Below the pieces are notes generated by a model. That model was not told where the DNA came from. It did no database searches and saw nothing but the letters and a program-made list of their open reading frames with translations. DNA of 52,242 nt, taken from positions 1 to 52,242 of the IMG/VR virus record IMGVR_UViG_3300028800_000124; one strand, given 5' to 3'. This document shows positions 1,427-28,009 of this stretch, one piece after another. Within the stretch, counting starts at the first letter, position 1; each line of letters opens with the position of its first letter. This stretch comes from a virus. Position numbers and translations under genes: made by a program.

Positions 1427-1665
1427 TCGCCTGCCTCTCTGTCCTCGGTGCGGTCTTGTACGCTGCCCGGGACGGTCACGGGCAGCCCTGGACGGGCCCC
1501 GCCGGCGGCTCTCTCAACGTCGTCGGCCAGCTCGCGCAGGAAAGCAGCTACCTCAGCTGCCGTGCCGTGCGTCATCGTGCGCCAGCGCGGGCTCCCGAAC
1601 TCCACGTACAGCCCGGCCTTCCCCTTCTCGTCCAGCAGGGGCGACAGGTCACGCTTGCCGCTCAC
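1423..1665 (-). CDS. hypothetical protein (80 aa)
   Basis: GTG start at 1665 overlaps the stop of the portal frame (CAGTGAGC). The protein has a central segment AAEVAAFLRELADDVERAAGG predicted to be a helix, preceded by a beta-like part (GLYVEFGSPRWRTMTHG). Unrecognised. Its coupling to the portal gene suggests a virion-assembly context, by inference. Confidence 0.6.
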   Translation of the reverse strand: MSGKRDLSPLLDEKGKAGLYVEFGSPRWRTMTHGTAAEVAAFLRELADDVERAAGGARPGLPVTVPGSVQDRTEDREAGE

Positions 1666-2585
1666 TGCCCGGCCCCCGGAACTCCTCCGGCCATGGGCAT
1701 GTTCTGCGGAGGCTTAGGCGCCCCCGTAGGACCCGCTGTCACCCTCGGCGCCGGCATCTTCATCCCCGGCGGGGGTGCGGTACTCGGGGGGGTGCTCCCC
1801 GCCTGCTTCGCTGCCGCCTGCTGCGCTATCGCCGTCCCTGCTGTCGCCAGTCCCTGCAGCTGCCCTAGCCCTGCTGCAGCCTCGGGGGGCATTCCCGGCG
1901 GGGGGTTCCCGGCTAGCTGCTCCGCCCGCTGGGACGCGGTGGAGACCAAAGCCTCGTGGACCTGGTCGACGTCCAGCTGCAGGATGCTCGCCATCCGCTC
2001 TGTCAAAAGGTCAAAAACCGACAATGGAATGTGCAAGACAGGCGCTGCCGCCATGGTGCTGAACATCGTCAGCAGCATCTGGACTTGCTCGTCCTGGAGC
2101 GGGCCGAACTTCGCCTGCGGGAATGACGCGCCGGAGCCGAAGTTGAGCAGGATCAGCGGCCTGATCACGTCATAGCTGAGGCTCTCGGCGATCTCCTTGG
2201 CGACGCCCTGGCGGCTTTTAAGATAAAAATCACTCTGATCCTGGCTCAACGAATAAGCGCCCTTGCCGCCGGTTGAAGCGCTGGCGAGGCCGAGGAACCC
2301 GGCGAGGACGCTTGAGATCGACCAGGAACTCAGGAACGCGAGAGCCTGCTCGAAGAACTGGCCCGCGTCCCCGGCCGAGGGGATCGCTTCGAAAGCCTTC
2401 TGGCCGTCGATCGGGTGAACGAGGCCGACAACGCCCGATCCGCGCAGCTGGGAGATGTCGTCGGCGCGCTGTGTCGCCTCCGGCTGATCGTTGCCGTACA
2501 CGACGAGGCGCTGGAGGGCCATGCCCTCCAAAAACTGGTACCAGGGCGTAAAAGGAAAAGCAATTTCATCTGGGTCTGGTGGCAG
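1662..2585 (-). CDS. open frame: portal C-extein
   Basis: This frame begins right at the intein end and reads PPDPDEIAFPFTPWYQFLEG, followed by a portal-like wing/stem region (RPLILLNFGSGASFPQAKFG, FGPLQDEQVQMLLTMF) and a Pro/Met-rich tail. A TTG at 2531 with its own frame is a possible internal start, but it lies inside conserved-looking sequence and has no ribosome site. I regard this as the displaced C-terminal half of the portal. Confidence 0.6.
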   Translation of the reverse strand: MPPDPDEIAFPFTPWYQFLEGMALQRLVVYGNDQPEATQRADDISQLRGSGVVGLVHPIDGQKAFEAIPSAGDAGQFFEQALAFLSSWSISSVLAGFLGLASASTGGKGAYSLSQDQSDFYLKSRQGVAKEIAESLSYDVIRPLILLNFGSGASFPQAKFGPLQDEQVQMLLTMFSTMAAAPVLHIPLSVFDLLTERMASILQLDVDQVHEALVSTASQRAEQLAGNPPPGMPPEAAAGLGQLQGLATAGTAIAQQAAAKQAGSTPPSTAPPPGMKMPAPRVTAGPTGAPKPPQNMPMAGGVPGAGQ

Positions 2586-4162
2586 TTATGTGTTCGGATG
2601 AAGTGGTTGGTCAGGAACAATCCATCCTGAGCCGCCACCGTTATGCAAGTGCATTCCTGCTCTGTCGTCGGCTCGATGCTGACGACCGACCTAGTGAAGC
2701 TTCTCCGGGTCTCACCCCCCTTCCACATCGCTGCCTTGCGGGGCAGGAGGAACGGGTTACGGGGGGTGCGGACCTCTACCCGGTACATGTACGAGGCGCC
2801 GAAATTGCTGTTCACGGTGTTCGCGGTCAGGGACGCCTTGCCGCCGAGCGACTCGACAAGCCGCTGCACGTCCAGGGCAAGCTGGCGGGAGATCGTGCCG
2901 AACAGGGACCTGTCAGTCTGGTCCCGCTGCTGGCTGCTGCCGCCGTCCGTGTCCATGAGCCCGCGCAGCAGGTCCCAGCGCTGCTTGGGCGACGCCAGCA
3001 GGTAGATCTCCGGGATGCTCTTGTCGCCGGCGGTCTTGTTGATGCCGAGCGTGACCAGGGAGTCCCTGAAGCTGTTCTGACGGCGGTGGAGCGTGTCCAC
3101 GATGTGATAGTTGGCGCAAGTGCCGTCATTATTGCCGCCGGAGCGGCGCAGTTCGATCTCAGCGGGAAGCCGGGAGCGCATCTCCTCGATGATGAAGCTG
3201 TCCGGGTCCGCACAGGACATGAACGGCGTGCCGGTGCGGCTGCCGTCCGGGACCTTGCCGATGCAGCCGTCGCCGAGCCACGCGCCGAGGACGTACGGGT
3301 CGATCGGCAGCTCACGCTCGGGGTATGCGACCTCGTCGCACAGCGGGAGGTAGTACCTGTAGTGCGTGCCGATCTTGAGGCCGGCTGCGCGCATCGCCCG
3401 CGTGGTGATCACCATGGACTGCGGCGGGGTGCGGAACGAGTTGCCGGGCCGGCCCTCAACCTCCCACAGGTGCTCCTCGTCGCACTCGACGCTGGTCTTG
3501 TCGGAGAACGTCACCCGGTACATCTGCCGCCTGCCGCGGGGATGCACGGCGGTGACGCGCGTCAGGTCTCCGTCACCGCCGAACACGACGTCGCCAGGGC
3601 GGATGTCCTCGATCGGCACCGGGCCGTCCGGGGTCTGCACCTGGGAGCCGTGAGCGAGGGCCCAGTAAGTCACCTCAAGCTCAGAAGTTCCGGTTAGCGG
3701 CTCGCGGTGCTTCCCGTGCGTGTAAATGTACGACCGCATCTTGGGAATGTCGACGTAGCCCGGAACTTTCTGCTTGCTACTCACCATGAGATTGCCCCCG
3801 AAAAGCCAGACCTGCTGACGAAAACCGTTGCTTTCGCCGGTCCTGTCATTGTATCTGGCCTGGCATGTCGCGGGGGGCCGGTAAGCGACCTTATCGTAAA
3901 TGATTTTGCCGTCAAGCTCGCGCTGCCGGAAAGTCTTCTCGAAGAAAGCCCTACGAAAAATTTGCGCACTAGTCACTTGGCCGAGCAGCGTCGTGACCGG
4001 GGTTTTCATCCCACCTTCAGTGTCCGGTGTCATGATCACGCCGCGGGCGAAGTCGCACTCCCCGCTGTCACCCTTGCTCGGTTCTATACTGAAGTCAGCT
4101 TCACGGATCGGGAGCGTGAGAACCATTTCGAGGGCGCTCGCGGTTCCATTCCGAGAAAACAT
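2330..4162 (-). CDS. open frame: portal N-extein plus intein
   Basis: This is the longest uninterrupted frame in the broken portal gene (610 codons from an internal ATG). Residues 1-167 are portal, 168-526 the intein, and residues after about 528 (HQTQMKLLFLL onward) are an out-of-frame reading of the C-extein and not true protein. No good ribosome site precedes ATG 4162, so translation probably starts at 4357 and meets the TGA at 4214-4216. Confidence 0.5.
   Translation of the reverse strand: MFSRNGTASALEMVLTLPIREADFSIEPSKGDSGECDFARGVIMTPDTEGGMKTPVTTLLGQVTSAQIFRRAFFEKTFRQRELDGKIIYDKVAYRPPATCQARYNDRTGESNGFRQQVWLFGGNLMVSSKQKVPGYVDIPKMRSYIYTHGKHREPLTGTSELEVTYWALAHGSQVQTPDGPVPIEDIRPGDVVFGGDGDLTRVTAVHPRGRRQMYRVTFSDKTSVECDEEHLWEVEGRPGNSFRTPPQSMVITTRAMRAAGLKIGTHYRYYLPLCDEVAYPERELPIDPYVLGAWLGDGCIGKVPDGSRTGTPFMSCADPDSFIIEEMRSRLPAEIELRRSGGNNDGTCANYHIVDTLHRRQNSFRDSLVTLGINKTAGDKSIPEIYLLASPKQRWDLLRGLMDTDGGSSQQRDQTDRSLFGTISRQLALDVQRLVESLGGKASLTANTVNSNFGASYMYRVEVRTPRNPFLLPRKAAMWKGGETRRSFTRSVVSIEPTTEQECTCITVAAQDGLFLTNHFIRTHNCHQTQMKLLFLLRPGTSFWRAWPSSASSCTATISRRRHSAPTTSPSCADRALSASFTRSTARRLSKRSPRPGTRASSSSRLSRS
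2585..3661 (-). other. class 3-like intein with LAGLIDADG homing endonuclease (359 aa)
   Basis: It starts at Ala (codon 3659-3661), not Cys or Ser, in ALAHGSQVQTPDGPVPIEDI, and ends with FIRTHN (Asn codon 2585-2587). It carries the three residues that define class 3 inteins: Trp in EHLWEV (intein residue 66), Cys in CTCITV (residue 339, block F) and Thr in RTHN (residue 357). Class 3 inteins splice through that internal Cys, not through residue 1. Two homing-endonuclease motifs are present: VLGAWLGDG and LLRGLMDTDG. The first base after the intein reads TGC (Cys +1) in the intein frame, but the portal sequence resumes one base out of frame. Confidence 0.85.
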
Positions 4163-4388
4163 TTGGCGGAGATCCCGGGCCCCGTATTCCCCGTAATCAA
4201 AGACGTCCCCGGATCAGTAATATGCGAAAAGCCGCTGGCCCATATCGAATTCGGTGCCCAGCGTGGGACCCAGCAATGCGCCTTTTCCGCCGCCGCCGGG
4301 AGAGCCTTTCGGGGGCAGGTCGGGGAAATCAATTACCTTGGCGCTGCCGCGTGCCATCCTCGTGCATCACCTCCCGGCCGCTGCTCAG

Positions 4389-8723: not shown

Positions 8724-10352
8724 CTACCGCCACGAACGGACGTTGCCTCGCGTCGGCCGCTCCTGCTCGTCGGCCGGCGCGAAGCCGTCCAGATCCCACG
8801 GCGCGTCCTCAAGTCCCGGGGCACCCTTAGCGGCTATCTCCCGCATCCGGCGACGAGCTTTCGTCTCCTCGTTCACTCCCATGTCACTGAGGTCCTGAGC
8901 GCCGGCCCACTTGCGGGCACCAGAAGCACCAGGCGGGCCGAACGTCTCCCGCAGGAACTTGGACGCCCCCCAGCACAGGCTGTCGAGCCTGTCCGGTGAC
9001 TTCTCCCCGGCCGAGCCCGTGAACGTCGCCATGCAGTCCTCCAGTTCCGGCATGTGCTCGTCCACCTTCAGGTGACCCTCGTCGTCTTTCCAGGTGCGGT
9101 GGCAGTGCAGGACGAGGGGGCGGCCGTCCTCGCTGATCCGGTCGTACATGACGGCGACCGGCTCGGCCCGTGCCCGCTTCGCGTCGGAGGCGTGCGTCAT
9201 CTCCACCCGCACGTGGGTGCCCATGTCCTTCTGCGCCTGGGCGAAGACCTCCTTCAGCCACTTGCCGCCGTGGTTCTTCTCCACGATGACGGTCGCGTTC
9301 CACTCCACGGCCTTGCGGATGACCCGTTTCGCGAACGGCGCCGGGGACTCCTGGCCGCCCCAGTTCTCCGCCACGTACAGGTGCGGGTCCGCCGGGTTGC
9401 CCTTCCCGATCACCGTGTACGCCTGCTCGTCGGAGTCCTCTGACCCGTCCGAGGGGTCGACGCCGATGTAAGTCTTCAGAAGGTACGGCGGGCCGCCCCG
9501 CTGGCCGACGCCGGGAACCCTGAGGCTGTCGAGCAGGTCACGGGTCCACAGGGCGTTCGCAACGTCGTCGAGCAGCTCGCCCTCGAGTTCCTGCTGCTCG
9601 AGGCGGGTGCCGCGGAAGCCGCCGACGACCGCGCGGACGAACGCCTCCGACAGGTTCGCGATGTTGTCGCGGGTCTTCAGCTTGCGGATGATCACCCCGC
9701 CGTGCTCGGGGTCGTTGCGGATGAAGCTGCGGATCAGCTTGCGGGCCTTGCGGCTGGCCTTCGGGGTGCCGTCCACGATGATCTGCGAGCGGCCGTCGCG
9801 GACCGCGTAGACCACCGATTCCTTCCAGGCGGTCTCCCACTTGTCCCACAGGCCGATCTCCGAGCACCATGCGCCTTTCAGGTTGCGGCCCTGAACCCGC
9901 AGGCCGCCCTCCGCCGCCGAGTCGACGTAGACGGTGATGCCGTTATGGAGTACCACCTGCCCGTAGGTGCGCCAGGCACCGCGGACCGTGCGGGAGCGGT
10001 GGTCCTTGATCTCGCCCATGCTGGTGCCCAGTGCCCGGAGCAGCCCGGTCTTTCCCTCGACGCACTTGGTCCACGCGTCTGCGTAGGTCGGGGCGACGAT
10101 CCCGTACTCGCCTTCGCCGTCCGTGTCGGACAGCAGCCAGTCGGCCATCGCGTTGGAGCAGCTGGCGTTCTTGCCCGCACCACGGCCGCCCTGCCAGTAG
10201 CAGACGCGCCAGTCGTTGCCGGGCGGCAGCAGCTGCTCAGGCCGGGCAAGCCGGCGCCATGCGGCCCGCGGGTCAACCGGCGCGGCCTCGAGCTTGCGGT
10301 CAAGCAGCCCGAGCACGGCCAGGTCGGCCTCGTCGGCGAGCAGGGCCGTCAC
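8724..10352 (-). CDS. terL: terminase large subunit (TerL)
   Basis: The packaging motor: its ATPase domain drives DNA into the empty head and its nuclease domain cuts the genome ends. The Walker A motif GGRGAGKN is at residues 55-62. CSEIGLW fits the Walker B/DE position, and VDGTPK the coupling motif. The C-terminal RNase H-like nuclease part includes TYIGVDPSDG and VEKNHGGKWL with acidic residues. At 542 aa it has the usual TerL length and looks intact. It is 5 bases from the candidate small subunit. The portal should follow it directly but is 4.4 kb away, behind the plus-strand island. Confidence 0.93.
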   Translation of the reverse strand: MTALLADEADLAVLGLLDRKLEAAPVDPRAAWRRLARPEQLLPPGNDWRVCYWQGGRGAGKNASCSNAMADWLLSDTDGEGEYGIVAPTYADAWTKCVEGKTGLLRALGTSMGEIKDHRSRTVRGAWRTYGQVVLHNGITVYVDSAAEGGLRVQGRNLKGAWCSEIGLWDKWETAWKESVVYAVRDGRSQIIVDGTPKASRKARKLIRSFIRNDPEHGGVIIRKLKTRDNIANLSEAFVRAVVGGFRGTRLEQQELEGELLDDVANALWTRDLLDSLRVPGVGQRGGPPYLLKTYIGVDPSDGSEDSDEQAYTVIGKGNPADPHLYVAENWGGQESPAPFAKRVIRKAVEWNATVIVEKNHGGKWLKEVFAQAQKDMGTHVRVEMTHASDAKRARAEPVAVMYDRISEDGRPLVLHCHRTWKDDEGHLKVDEHMPELEDCMATFTGSAGEKSPDRLDSLCWGASKFLRETFGPPGASGARKWAGAQDLSDMGVNEETKARRRMREIAAKGAPGLEDAPWDLDGFAPADEQERPTRGNVRSWR

Positions 10353-15040: not shown

Positions 15041-15218
15041 CAGCGGGCCTCCGCTCGCATTCCAGCCTCAGCGTGAGCGTGTCCGCGTACGGCATCTCAG
15101 CGCGCATCCGGTCCAGTTCGATCATGACCATCTCCCGCCAGCCGAGCACGAAGCTGTCCGCCATCGTGGTCAGGTCAACGCGGCGGGTCAGGGTAGCGCG
15201 GGCAGTCTCGTCATCCAT
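15033..15218 (-). CDS. hypothetical protein (61 aa)
   Basis: ATG 15218 chosen; the frame stays open to 15245. Reads RVDLTTMADSFVLGWREMVM. It overlaps the end of the TnpB-containing frame by 8 bases, which shows that the 3' part of that frame keeps the phage operon spacing. Unknown function. Confidence 0.55.
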   Translation of the reverse strand: MDDETARATLTRRVDLTTMADSFVLGWREMVMIELDRMRAEMPYADTLTLRLECERRPAGD

Positions 15219-16731
15219 TGCGTATCCACCGCACTGTCTCGTCATGGCGGGCCAGCATCTCCGTTACCCGCTCAGGGGACAGGCGCCTGGTGCTCTCCGT
15301 CACGAACCAGCGGTCATGCCCTGTTCCCCTCGTGTGCGCCCCGGCCCACTTGCCTCGCTCGGCCGGGCTGTCGAAAGGCATCACCAGGTCACCGTTGCCG
15401 CACTCCGTGGTCCCGGTCTGACCCGCTCGCGCGGCGCCGGGTTCCTGTTTCACCGGGTCCCGCCCGGCATGGCCGGGTCTTACAGTCCCTCCGCAGGCGT
15501 TTCGACTCTCGGCCCCACTGGCCGCGAGTTTCAGCAGGTTACGGGCCGCGTTAACGTCCCGGTCCTCTTGGTGCCCGCAGCTTTCGCAGCGGAAGGTACG
15601 CTCGGATAGGGTCAGCTTGGCTTTCACTGCCCCGCATTCCGAGCACGTCTTGGAGCTGGGGAACCAGCGGTCGGCGACGATGAGCGTCCCGCCGTTCCAT
15701 GTGGTCTTGTAGGCGAGCATCCGCCGCGCCTCGCCGAATCCCTGGTCGGAGATAGCGCGGGCGAGGCGGCGGTTCTTCACCATCCCGGCCACGTTCAGGT
15801 CCTCGATCACGACCGTCTCGTACCGCCGGGCGAGGTCCGTCGTCGCCTTGTGCAGCGCGTCGGCGCGGACGTTCGCGACGCGAGCGTGGATGCGGGCTAG
15901 CCTCGCCGCCGACTTGCGGCGGTTCGCCGAACCAGGTTGCTTCCGGGAGTAAACGCGGCTAGCGCGACGCAGCCTTCCCAGGCCGACCCGCAGTGCCCTT
16001 GGCCCGGCGACCCCGATCACCCGGTGAAGGTTGTCGACCCCAGTCAGCAGAGTCTTGACGCCGAGATCGACGCCGATCGCGGAGCCTTGCCGCGCGTGCG
16101 ACTCTGGGACGTCCCGCTCCACCTCGACCGTGAACGACACGAACCAGCGCTGCGCCGTCCGGGAGATGGTCACCGACAGGATACGGGCGGTGCCGTCTTC
16201 GCGGCGGCGGGCGAGTGAGAGGGTGGACTCGTGCGTGCGGACGGTGCCGATCTTCGGCAGCGTGACTGTTGCGCCAGAGCAGCGCAGGGGCCGGTCGCTA
16301 TCTAGGCGGAACGAGTCCCGGCACCTGCCGCGCTTCTTGAACCGCGGGAAGCCGAGCCGCTTGCCTTTCCGCTGTCCGCTGCGGGACTTCACGTAGTCCC
16401 GCAGCGCCCGGTCAAGGTCACGGAACGCCTCCTGGTAGGCGCACTTGCTGTTCTCGGACCACCAGGCGAGCGCCGGGTCCGTCTTCTTCTCCGCGTTCCA
16501 GAGCTTGTGCAGGTCCATCGCCGAGTACCACTTGCCCTCAGCCTCGTACCGCTCAAGACACTTCGCGAGCCCCCAGTTCCAGGCGAACCGGGACGCCCCG
16601 GCGTGCGAGTAGAGTGCTTGCTCCTGTGTAGGCGTCGGGTCGAGAGCGAAGCGGAATGCTTGGATGACTCTTATGGTCAGGCTGTCTTCGTCGGCAACAA
16701 GGTCGGCGGTGCAGGCGGTCATTTCAGTCAT
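15211..16731 (-). CDS. tnpB: TnpB nuclease fused in frame to an interrupted phage gene
   Basis: Residues about 20-445 are a TnpB (IS200/IS605-family RNA-guided nuclease): LDPTPTQEQ start, RuvC residues Asp222 (IGVDLG), Glu310 (VVIEDLN) and Asp392 (DRDVNAARN), and a zinc finger with CSEC and CESC. All catalytic residues are present. The first 19 residues (MTEMTACTADLVADEDSLT) and the last about 57 (LVMPFDSPAERGKW onward) belong to another small protein that the element interrupts. Both joints stay in frame. ATG 16731 overlaps the previous phage gene by 8 bases, showing the host gene's own start is used; TnpB may start inside. TnpB works with an omega RNA normally made from the 3' end of its own gene. 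Confidence 0.85.
   Translation of the reverse strand: MTEMTACTADLVADEDSLTIRVIQAFRFALDPTPTQEQALYSHAGASRFAWNWGLAKCLERYEAEGKWYSAMDLHKLWNAEKKTDPALAWWSENSKCAYQEAFRDLDRALRDYVKSRSGQRKGKRLGFPRFKKRGRCRDSFRLDSDRPLRCSGATVTLPKIGTVRTHESTLSLARRREDGTARILSVTISRTAQRWFVSFTVEVERDVPESHARQGSAIGVDLGVKTLLTGVDNLHRVIGVAGPRALRVGLGRLRRASRVYSRKQPGSANRRKSAARLARIHARVANVRADALHKATTDLARRYETVVIEDLNVAGMVKNRRLARAISDQGFGEARRMLAYKTTWNGGTLIVADRWFPSSKTCSECGAVKAKLTLSERTFRCESCGHQEDRDVNAARNLLKLAASGAESRNACGGTVRPGHAGRDPVKQEPGAARAGQTGTTECGNGDLVMPFDSPAERGKWAGAHTRGTGHDRWFVTESTRRLSPERVTEMLARHDETVRWIRNG
15388..16675 (-). mobile_element. TnpB-only IS200/IS605-family insertion (IS1341-type)
   Basis: About 1.29 kb. No tnpA transposase gene is present, so it would need TnpA in trans. 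The left end is placed after CTGAC (minus strand 16680-16676) and the right end before CTGGTGATG (from 15387). Boundaries are inferred from where the interrupted gene resumes and may be off by a few bases. Joining the flanks gives a 75-residue frame reading DSLT-LVMPFDSPAERG. IS605 elements make no target duplication, which agrees with the flanks. Confidence 0.65.
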
Positions 16732-18683: not shown

Positions 18684-19264
18684 TTCTGCTCACTCTCATC
18701 AGGGGGAAGGCAGGGAATGACGGGCAGTCGGTGACCGCGCACATGTGCTCCTGGCACCACGAGACCGGGCGGGAGGCGCTGATCCTCTCCAGGTCTGCCA
18801 GGTCCCGCATGCTCCGCCAGGTCCAGTTCCCGTGACGCCTCAGCGAGCAGGCTCCGCGCATCGTCGGTCCTGCCGAGGCTGATGCACTCAGCAGCATCCC
18901 TTGCGGCCTCAGCGGCACGGTCACGGGCGCGCTTCACGAGCAGCGGGGTTCCGTCTTCCGCATTCTCGGACAGGTGGGCGATGAACACCGCGTACCCGGG
19001 TGCCCCGTCGCCGCCCTTGAACGGGCCGAGGACCGCGCCCCGCCCGCCGCGTCCGATCGTAACCTCCATCGTGGCCGGCAGTTCCCCCGCGTCGAATGAC
19101 CCGCAGACGAGAGCACCAGCCTCGCCGTCACGGCCCATCTCCCCGATGCCTACCGACCCGCCGCCTCCGGAACCGCAGACCAGGTAGTCAACGCGGACGG
19201 CGCCCTCCGGCTTCACCCACGTGCCGGAGGAGGGGAAGTACTGGATTACCGGGGTGCTGTTCAC
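18680..19264 (-). CDS. glycine-rich-domain phage protein, C-terminus uncertain (194 aa)
   Basis: The N-terminal 95 residues (FPSSGTWVKPEGAVRVDYLV, then CGSGGGGSVGIGEMG and IGRGGRGAVLGPFKGGDG) match the glycine-rich domain found in phage tail tip and fibre proteins. Residues 110-150 are helical. The last 40 residues look out of frame. Another frame from about 18810, with the ribosome site GGCGGAGC, reads MRDLADLERISASRPVSWCQ then EHMCAVTDC and looks more natural. A frameshift or an overlapping gene is possible. Confidence 0.6.
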   Translation of the reverse strand: MNSTPVIQYFPSSGTWVKPEGAVRVDYLVCGSGGGGSVGIGEMGRDGEAGALVCGSFDAGELPATMEVTIGRGGRGAVLGPFKGGDGAPGYAVFIAHLSENAEDGTPLLVKRARDRAAEAARDAAECISLGRTDDARSLLAEASRELDLAEHAGPGRPGEDQRLPPGLVVPGAHVRGHRLPVIPCLPPDESEQK

Positions 19265-25496: not shown

Positions 25497-27827
25497 CTAG
25501 GCAACTTCGGCCTCCCTGATCGCGCCGAGCACCTCAGCGAGGTCCTCCGGCCGCTTCAGGACATCGCGCGCCTTGCTGCCCTCGGCAGGCCCCACGACGC
25601 CGCGCCGCTGAAGCTCGTCCATCAGGCTGCCGGCGTCAGCGAACCCGACGCGGAGCTTGCGCTGCAGCATCGACGTGGACCCGAACTGGGACGTGATGAC
25701 CAGTTCGGCGGCAGCGGCGAGCAGTTCCGTGTCGGCCGCGGCGCCGGCTGGCGCGGGCGCGTCGGCGGGGGTACCGGCGAGTGCCGCCTCGACCGTGGCA
25801 CGCTTGATGCCCTTGCGGTTCGCCCCGCCCGGCTCGCGGCCCTCGTCGCTGTCGCGCCCGGTGAGCCCGCGCACGTCCGCTGACACGGCGTCAGCGGTAA
25901 GCCCGGCGTACGTGCCGGGGAACCGGGCGGCGAGGCGGTCGGCGACCGTCTGCCAGTACAGGTGCTGCTCGCGCGGCCCGTACAGGGACAGGACATCGGC
26001 GAGCAGGCCCCGCTCACCCTGCACCTCGTCCTCGCCGAGCGCGTACCCGGACAGCGTTCCGGCGGCTTCCCGCATCGCGCGGGCCCGGGTGCAGATCTTC
26101 TGAGTTGCGGTCAGGTTCAGGTAGTACGTCTTTACCGGGCGCGGGTCGCCCGTCCCGCGCAGCCAGCCGAGTCCCGCGTCCGTCTCCTGGCGGAACGCCA
26201 CGGCGGACCACCCGGAGTCGTGGGCACCGGTGCCGAGGATCATGTTGTTGGACTGCCAGTCCGGCACCTTCAGGCAGAACCGGGTGGTGACGATGCCGCT
26301 CATCTGGGTGGGCATCGAGTCCTTGTCGGGCCGCTGGGTCGCCGCGATCACGGTGATGCCGAGCGCGCGGGCGGAGCGGATGACGTGGGTGATGTTGGCG
26401 GTGGCCTGCGGGCCGAGGGACGGGTGAAGGAACAGGTTGTGGATCTCATCGAAGATCGCGACGATCGGCGTGAGGCCGTACTTCGCAGCGATCTCACGGG
26501 TGATGTCGCCGTCGGGCCGTTCCGTCAGCGGGATCTTCTTGAGGATCTTGACGCGTCGCTCAACCTCGTCGCTGAGCATGGCCAGGGACTGGGCGGCGTA
26601 GGCGAGGGACTCCGGGTCGAGGCCTGAACAGTAGCGGTGCGCGACCAGGGTGAACGGGTCAAGGTCGCCCTTGCCGAGCAGTTCGTGGACCCACAGTTGC
26701 ACGGTGGGGTCGAGCGCGGCCCATGAGGCGAGCACGCGGACCGACCCGGTTTTGCCGTTTCCGGGTGCCCCCCCGATCAGCCAGTTCTTCCCGAACAGCT
26801 TCTCCAGCACGGGCAGGGCGCGGGGGGTGAACGCGAACGGGGCAGGCTGGAAGTAGTCGGCTGCCCCGGACTTGAGCAGCGGCCACGGCGGCGCCTTCAT
26901 CTTCGCCATGTCCTGCCGGCCGATCCACAGGTACAGGCGCCCCTCGTGCTCGCCGGGGACCGCCTCGGGCCACACGGCGGACAGGGGACGGCGCAGCGAG
27001 GAGGACAGTTCCTTGCGCTTGGCGATGATCGTCTCGGCCTTGACGCCCCCGGGAAGGTCGAGCTCGACAGCCCAGCCGGGGCCGTCGCGGTGAACGTCGG
27101 ACACCCAGTCGAGCGTCCCGTGACTCTCGATGTACTTGACGATCGCGGATATGCCGAGGTCCTTGAACGCCTTCGTGATCAGTTCCGGCGTCGGCACCTG
27201 GTAGGCCGGCGGGAGCACCGCGGCGGGGATGAACGGCCTGCCCTGCGGGCGCCCGTGGTGCACGAGGGTGACGAACGCCGCCCCGGCCGCTGCTGCCTGG
27301 ACTTCCCAGGGTGCCGCCGCGGTGAGTGCCAGGGAGGTGCCCGTGCCCGCGAGAAGGCTGGCGCCGGTCATGTGACGCCGGCGTTTCTTGACCCGTTCCC
27401 GCTCGGTGTGCGCCTGCATGACCTGCGCGTGCCCGGCGTCGCCGCGGGCGAGGCCCTGGGAGACGAGGACCCGCAGGTCGGTCACGTCGTACCAGCGCGC
27501 CCACCGGCCGGCGAGGCGGGCACCCCCGCGGGCGGCGTACCACAGGGAGCCGGGAGCGTACAGGACCGGGAGGCGCACCCCGTGGAAGCCGGCCCGGTAG
27601 GCGTTCAGGGCTGCTAGGTCACGGGCTGTCTGGGCGCGCTGGCCCTTGCGGAACGCCTCAGGAACGATCGCGGCGCGACGGGCCTCGCCCGGAGCGCCGG
27701 CGGGGACAGCGGCGGGTGCATCGGTGCCCGGCGCGCTCTCCTCGCCGGCGGCCGGCGCGGCACCAGAGATGTCCTCGTCGTCATCGGGTGCGACAGGGTG
27801 CAGGCGGCGGACAGCAGGGATGGTCAA
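25497..27827 (-). CDS. FtsK/SpoIIIE-type DNA translocase, TraSA/TraB-like
   Basis: Hexameric ATPase that pumps double-stranded DNA through a membrane pore; in AICEs it moves the element between mycelia without relaxase. TTG 27827 is taken because GGAGGAG lies six bases upstream. Order: disordered acidic N-terminus (1-50), two membrane helices near 156-189 ([19 protein letters not shown], then [11 protein letters not shown]), Walker [10 protein letters not shown] (352-360), Walker [10 protein letters not shown] (456-464), ATQRPDKDS, and a C-terminal winged helix (703-774, [19 protein letters not shown]). It looks intact. TTGA overlap couples it to the small membrane protein before it. Confidence 0.9.
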
Positions 27828-28009
27828 GCGAATCTCCTCCGGGCGGGGATAGTGCGCCACCCCGTCTGCAGGATGACGCTGAGGACGCAGTAGCCCAGGA
27901 CCGTGACGGTCCCGAGGATGACCAGGGTCGCGATGGCGAGGGCGGCGTGCGGGCCGACCGCCACGGCGAGCGCGGCGAAGATGACGGCGACAAGTGCGCG
28001 GGGGTCCAT
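27824..28009 (-). CDS. small membrane protein, spread-like (61 aa)
   Basis: ATG 28009 after AGGAGG. Two hydrophobic helices ([40 protein letters not shown]). It is coupled to the FtsK gene by TTGA. In Streptomyces elements, small Spd membrane proteins sit next to tra and aid intramycelial spread; assignment by position and shape. Confidence 0.65.

Follow-up and report, generated by a model that had tools for sequence, protein, structure and literature searches.

The window, by which is meant the whole stretch of DNA that was analysed, is an IMG/VR virus record of 52,242 bp and 70% GC, and on its minus strand is found the portal gene of a soil phage that carries a class 3 intein and, shortly beyond that intein, a short insert which breaks the portal frame. 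It is likely that the frame of this host gene is restored at translation by hungry-codon bypassing, and likely as well that this is a property of an entire lineage of related phages. As judged by comparison of sequences, these inserts would greatly extend, and make a strong case for, a mechanism that earlier was suggested for one actinophage gene. Very few natural genes are known to be decoded by bypassing and, if ribosomes indeed skip these inserts, then a very rare type of decoding becomes common within a single lineage of phages. At this locus the insert, together with its family, is more remarkable than the intein.

The open frame at 2330-4162 (minus strand) consists of portal sequence, the intein (ALAHGSQVQTPDG ... 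NHFIRTHN), and then CHQTQMKLLFLLRPG. That the intein's host protein is a portal, as proposed in an earlier, sequence-only reading of this DNA, is confirmed by a match of the C-terminal part (286 aa) to PF06074, Portal_Mu (E=4.4e-12), along with a match of an intact relative to the portal family phrog_113 (E=6.5e-29). As intein-free portals of related contigs read VAYW|CHQTQMKLLFLWYxFLEGMALQRL, the intein must occupy exactly 2585-3661, with cysteine as the +1 residue. The parts of the gene, in order of translation, are as follows:

3662..4357, minus strand: portal N-extein, codons 1-232, with its ATG at 4357, as aligned to intact portals
4214..4216, minus strand: portal codon 48, an in-frame TGA immediately following Tyr47 (TAC TGA TCC GGG), as read from the sequence
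2585..3661, minus strand: intein of class 3, 359 aa (Ala1-Asn359), bearing a LAGLIDADG homing endonuclease, delimited by frameshift-aware alignment to intein-free portals and with relatives in contigs L002, L250, and L251
2552..2584, minus strand: start of the C-extein, CHQTQMKLLFL, 11 codons in frame with the intein, where intein-free portals read YW|CHQTQMKLLFLW
2552-2554, minus strand: proposed take-off codon CTT (Leu243), the last of those 11 codons
2544..2551, minus strand: 8-nt frame-breaking insert TTACGCCC, with in-phase TTA first and, last, the proposed landing codon CCC, reading resuming at TGG
1662..2543, minus strand: remaining C-extein, which runs in the new frame from WYQFLEGMALQRL through to the stop, the segment that matches PF06074 (E=4.4e-12; dN/dS 0.119 versus L002)

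Neither the 8-nt insert nor the TGA had figured in the earlier reading, which had the C-extein beginning with PPDPDE and expected portals to continue across TYW and PPDPDE alike. That expectation fails, since intein-free portals read TYW|CHQTQMKLLFLW: the true C-extein is CHQTQMKLL with its Cys+1, and PPDPDE comes from reading this DNA in a different frame. This failure does not touch upon the intein because it is the 8-nt insert, 33 nt further on, which breaks the portal frame.

Once eleven C-extein codons have followed the intein, the last of them CTT, the window's portal reads CTT TTACGCCC TGG TAC CAG. Its 8 extra nt are a non-coding stretch that separates two frames, both conserved, of a single protein. 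At the homologous position the closest intein-bearing relative (L002) reads CTT TTAGGCTT TGG TAC CAG, the insert at codon 243 of L250 and L251 is TTAGACAGAAACTC, and intein-free portals have no extra bases. The TGA at codon 48 may be a 6-nt in-frame stop-hop, TAC[TGATCC]GGG, which would fit the rule that the inserts follow, or possibly it is a nonsense change from GGA, or a site of readthrough. That the window's portal would require this additional event, beyond the one at codon 243, counts against bypassing. In five relatives, L023, L039, L080, L081, and L250, an insert starting with TGA or TAG is found at this same site.

A frameshift-aware alignment of 82 portal genes was used to find such extra segments. 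Among related IMG/VR phages, portal, terminase, and a third gene together have 49 distinct short inserts, which occupy 13 codon sites. These are 3-15 and 19 nt in length, with both non-zero frames represented. Within portals they are concentrated in the 5' part of the gene, other portal sites in relatives being after T35, F37, Y47, F53, D54, Y55, G56, codon 62, and F139, and they lie as few as 6 codons apart (portals of L023, L024, and L056). Examples are ACT[TTAGACC]TCG, TAT[TTAT]GGC, TAC[TAGTCAAC]GGC, TTC[TTAATGTC]GAC, GAT[TTAAGAA]TAT, GGC[TTACCTACCTCGGC]GAA, and TTC[TTACCCGGTC]GAG. In the terminase of three related contigs GGA[TTAAGGA]CTG falls within the Walker A motif GPHGLGKS and further terminases possess instead GGA[TTAAAAAAGGA] or GGA[TTAGCGA], with removal of the insert restoring GPHGLGKS. 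The third gene has no Pfam or PHROG matches. The locations of the terminase and third-gene cases are these:

L116, about 6299, minus strand: large terminase interrupted at Walker A
L091, about 11000, plus strand: large terminase interrupted at Walker A
L099, about 9062, minus strand: large terminase interrupted at Walker A
L135, L137, and L232: further large terminases interrupted at Walker A
L104, about 15540-15565, minus strand: third gene, with CAG[TTAATTCTG]GTC and TAC[TTAC]CAG, removal of which restores VDQVYAHYQHE

The remaining frame-breaking indels in the aligned cores either show the same pattern or are ends or poor alignments. A homology scan of other genes was noisy, with only portal, terminase, and the one further gene holding up, and a scan of whole contigs by codon-usage score was too strict, missing known cases. 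Two candidates were rejected: a TTCTTA...GTCGA match at G002 75970, which has no in-frame insert and lies in a Hint-like gene, and an in-frame TTA at window 41114 and at G002 16810, which in G002 is the stop codon of a convergent gene read from the other strand. A Hint-like domain (HHLAVTPNHPVLTSQGWVAAGLLREGADVV) was seen also in a relative's gene, at about 18800-18990 (plus strand) of L091.

The inserts obey a common grammar. The first in-phase codon of the insert is TTA in 44 cases, TGA in three, and TAG in two, which is 49 of 49 as placed, where inserts repeating the take-off codon have several equivalent placements of which one starting with TTA or a stop was chosen. The last codon of the insert, in turn, matches the codon preceding the insert at two positions (33 cases) or at three (16), i.e., at least two of three in every case, with third-position wobble allowed. 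With one insert per site, the mean match is 2.34 versus 1.19 given shuffled take-offs, a value reached by none of 20,000 shuffles (P<5e-5), and the mean match drops to 0.98 or 0.82, respectively, once the landing codon is displaced by 1 or 2 nt. The window's own proposed landing is only a two-of-three match (CTT to CCC), the corresponding codon being CTT in L002 and CTC in L250 and L251. A limiting case is that of L054, where TTT TTA GGC can be read as TTT+2, that is, from TTT to an overlapping TTT, with TTA again the next codon. As to TTA itself, this is found at none of 39,025 matched portal codons and 18 times among 64,011 codons of conserved segments from nine contigs, roughly ten of these being the inserts themselves and some of the others resembling gene ends or wrong frames.

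Bypassing would proceed as follows. The ribosome would read the portal codons, the intein, and then the 11 C-extein codons through to the CTT of Leu243. The next codon is UUA, which is hardly used in these GC-rich phages, and there the ribosome would stall with peptidyl-tRNA(Leu) in its P site. That tRNA would then release CTT and re-pair where the insert ends, at its last codon (CCC in the window, CTT in L002, CTC in L250 and L251), following which decoding would restart at TGG. The insert probably ties the synthesis of portal and terminase to the slowness of UUA decoding, and in this way would act as a gate on host state. In Streptomyces the tRNA for UUA is developmentally limited, and such a gate would fit a host of that sort. 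GTDB searches for hosts or prophages found no relatives. A tRNA search of the window and of four large contigs found no tRNA genes.

Purifying selection acts on the frames found on both sides of the insert. Between the window and L002, portal dN/dS is 0.226 for codons 1-47, 0.095 for codons 57-139, 0.126 for codons 140-232, and 0.119 for codons 244-492, that is, after the insert, while the intein has a value of 0.207; across all segments yielding a value the range is 0.05-0.23. In a maximum-likelihood tree, 24 portal genes form a clade with support of 100/98, and each of them has at least one insert, with no site common to all; outside of that clade an insert is found in five of 42. It seems that within this clade the presence of an insert is conserved as its position shifts. 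L250 and L251 share every nucleotide from codon 62 or so onward, intein included, until shortly before the portal ends. Over codons 31-60, in contrast, 22% of their bases differ although the protein does not, and there the two carry different 7-nt inserts (TAT[TGATTAA] versus TTC[TTAATCC]), an apparent recombination of 5' modules.

Other explanations were weighed as well. With one frame break and one in-frame stop, the window's portal could be viewed as a decaying pseudogene whose intein, its own frame open, is a selfish leftover, but that is quite unlikely given that dN/dS against L002 is low in every portal segment, including after the insert, that 24 of 24 related portal genes are broken by breaks which obey one grammar, and that cultured, plaque-forming phages show the same breaks in their terminases. 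Assembly or sequencing errors come to mind whenever sequences are from metagenomic contigs, yet are hardly credible as the source of the same sites and the same grammar across dozens of contigs, particularly as the terminase and most portal controls are without frame errors and isolate genomes share the pattern. Two elements capable of leaving DNA scars are encoded by the window, i.e., TnpB (15211-16731) and the intein endonuclease, and some inserts are exact copies of the preceding codon, as target duplications following end-joining, homing, or IS605/TnpB activity might be. Scars that simply are tolerated would be expected in any codon phase, however, and without need to start with TTA or a stop, and two-thirds of the matches are near-matches rather than duplications; as a replacement for bypassing this is highly improbable, though a scar origin of the inserts could exist alongside bypassing.

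Alternatively, the frame could be restored by ordinary +1, -1, or +2 frameshifting, with insert-coded residues retained, or the insert could be removed from the mRNA. Bypassing is regarded as much rarer than frameshifting in a review (PMC5009743), which speaks for this alternative. No one shift would account, however, for inserts that measure 3-15 and 19 nt and fall in both non-zero frames, and frameshifting would add two or three residues to the terminase P-loop, so that by length and location ordinary frameshifting is excluded as the sole mechanism. Canonical -1 slippage was considered as well for CTTTTCCTTTTA, and was rejected as there is no in-phase X_XXY_YYZ heptamer and extra residues would remain. 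Removal from RNA requires neither a codon phase nor a match to the preceding codon, a match which a slide of 1-2 nt destroys. Frame restoration by either of these routes is accordingly improbable. Synthesis of the portal as separate polypeptides, with re-initiation after each break, is suggested by the GGAGGGC ATG just after the window insert, that is, by an ATG in frame (start of MALQRL) preceded by something like GGAGG, but is very unlikely given that inserts lie within the Walker A loop of the terminase and down to 6 codons apart, and that the stretch from the insert to the next ATG is conserved.

The intein for its part is largely as the sequence-only reading had described: it lies at 2585-3661 (359 aa, minus strand), and has Ala at position 1, T-H-N as its last residues, EHLW, TCITV, and RTHN, plus two LAGLIDADG motifs. 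Its class-defining features, all on the minus strand, are:

3464..3466: class 3 Trp, W66, of block B (HLW), an invariant alignment column
3260..3295: first LAGLIDADG motif, YVLGAWLGDGCI, from sequence and alignment
2939..2971: second LAGLIDADG motif, LLRGLMDTDGG, from sequence and alignment
2645..2647: class 3 internal nucleophile Cys, C339, of block F (TCITV), an invariant alignment column
2585..2593: T357-H358-N359 of block G, at the C-terminal splice junction, THN being invariant in the alignment

The tentative class 3 label of that reading stands up to alignment with inteins of phage terminases (Beem, LittleE, and Zipp) and of a helicase (Papperlapapp), in that H64-x-W66, C339, and T357-H358-N359 are invariant columns; identity to the phage homologues aligned is 31-39%. 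The H-x-W spacing equals that of His65/Trp67 in block B of MchDnaB1 (PMC7664689). Residues A1-W66 align also with PDB 6BS8, a class 3 DnaB intein, over the N-terminal part of the latter, the N-terminal block aligns also to gp41-1, and PF14528 matches over the second half (E=1.7e-6). Every portal copy has Ala1, that is, lacks a Cys, Ser, or Thr nucleophile at position 1, and the THN|C junction, i.e., C-terminal HN plus Cys+1, agrees with the YW|C of intein-free portals. To judge from these motifs, the portal element is of the known class 3 kind. Splicing would then involve attack by C339 on the upstream splice junction, transfer of the N-extein to Cys+1, and cyclisation of Asn359, to yield an uninterrupted portal protein.

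As with class 3 inteins generally (MsmDnaB1, 6BS8, and those of mycobacteriophage terminases and RDF), the window intein combines absence of a residue-1 nucleophile with WCT, THN, and a LAGLIDADG endonuclease, but differs in residing in a Portal_Mu-type portal, at YW|C. Portal inteins are not as such new, contrary to the supposition that none had been well described, as six are listed in cluster C1 mycobacteriophages (PMC5050341). Those share with the window intein a portal host, but one of a different portal family (POG1190). Among 60 listed of 742 phage records with intein relatives, sampled down the ranking, none was annotated as portal; these were instead helicases, terminases, other enzymes, or hypothetical proteins.

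Intein and codon-243 insert occur together. Besides the window, an intein occupies this portal site in three further contigs, L002 (86% amino acid identity) and L250 and L251 (52%), so that four contigs of three lineages have it at W232|C233, and all four possess an insert at codon 243, versus none of 64 distinct intein-free portals (Fisher P about 2e-5). To account for this pairing, co-conversion during homing would be enough. A further and more speculative possibility, one which we consider somewhat doubtful, is that of a maintained regulatory code. No portal of the clade could then do without a hop that starts with UUA or a stop, whatever its position, such that the phage would make head and packaging proteins only while UUA goes undecoded, and the portal intein would always be coupled to the codon-243 hop, perhaps by co-conversion or instead by the C-terminal segment of the intein being in the exit tunnel during the hop.

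Similar inserts are found in cultured phages. In the large terminase of phiHau3 (NC_018836, 2329-3995) there is GGC[TTACTCCGGT]AAG GAC at the KGWG site, which a 2016 review describes, citing its reference 161, as likely UUA-linked bypassing (PMC5009743). As with the inserts here, a take-off codon (GGC) is followed by TTA and there is a landing codon (GGT), over 10 nt. Beyond the site given in that review, phiHau3 (L239) has a second terminase break, at 2924, reading TCT[TTAACGGTCC]ACG TTC. The terminases of phiHau3, GreenWeasel, BroPlease, and Triumph have GGC[TTACTCCGGT] or GGC[TTACCCCGGT]; GreenWeasel (L242) has both breaks, BroPlease and Triumph the first only, and examination of the Endor1 terminase found neither. 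These Streptomyces phage inserts follow the same grammar but in a different terminase family, and, as the phages are cultured, such inserts are compatible with plaque formation. Annotation pipelines will split insert-bearing genes into pseudogene-like fragments, as already has occurred with GreenWeasel, BroPlease, and Triumph.

Versus phiHau3, with its one gene in few phages, what is seen here are three genes and 13 sites, stop-initiated variants, turnover of positions, and linkage to an intein. Phage T4 gene 60 is alike in having a stop or slow codon after take-off, matched take-off and landing, and a new frame, and indeed the same GGA/GGA pair as in the terminases here (PMC5009743), but its gap is 50 nt with nascent-peptide and stem-loop stimulators, whereas the present inserts, as known from their sequences, mostly are 4-15 nt. 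The byp elements of Magnusiomyces capitatus mitochondria are likewise short and numerous and occur in conserved genes within a single genome lineage, with two-out-of-three landing matches and an unused A-site codon (PMC5009743); they differ in involving mitochondrial ribosomes rather than bacterial phages, in which inserts are shorter and start with a rare Leu codon or stops. The present phage lineage supplies some fifty natural variants of putative bypass inserts at 13 sites in essential genes, near-isogenic pairs (L250 and L251), and uninterrupted relatives as controls, and therefore the rules of hungry-codon hopping should be directly testable.

Some further observations concern neighboring genes. 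Long insertions (453-1152 nt) follow the P-loop Lys79 of the terminase in L144, L151-L153, L156, L158, and L159, which is where terminase inteins commonly lie. In the window, the TnpB/OrfB_IS605 protein at 15211-16731 (minus strand) has a Cas12f1-like TNB domain, while at 25497-27860 (minus strand) is a 787-aa protein ending in an FtsK gamma domain. The window's terminase, at 8724-10352 (minus strand), is of the Terminase_6C type, and as this differs in family from the terminase of the portal's relatives, the window genome is mosaic.
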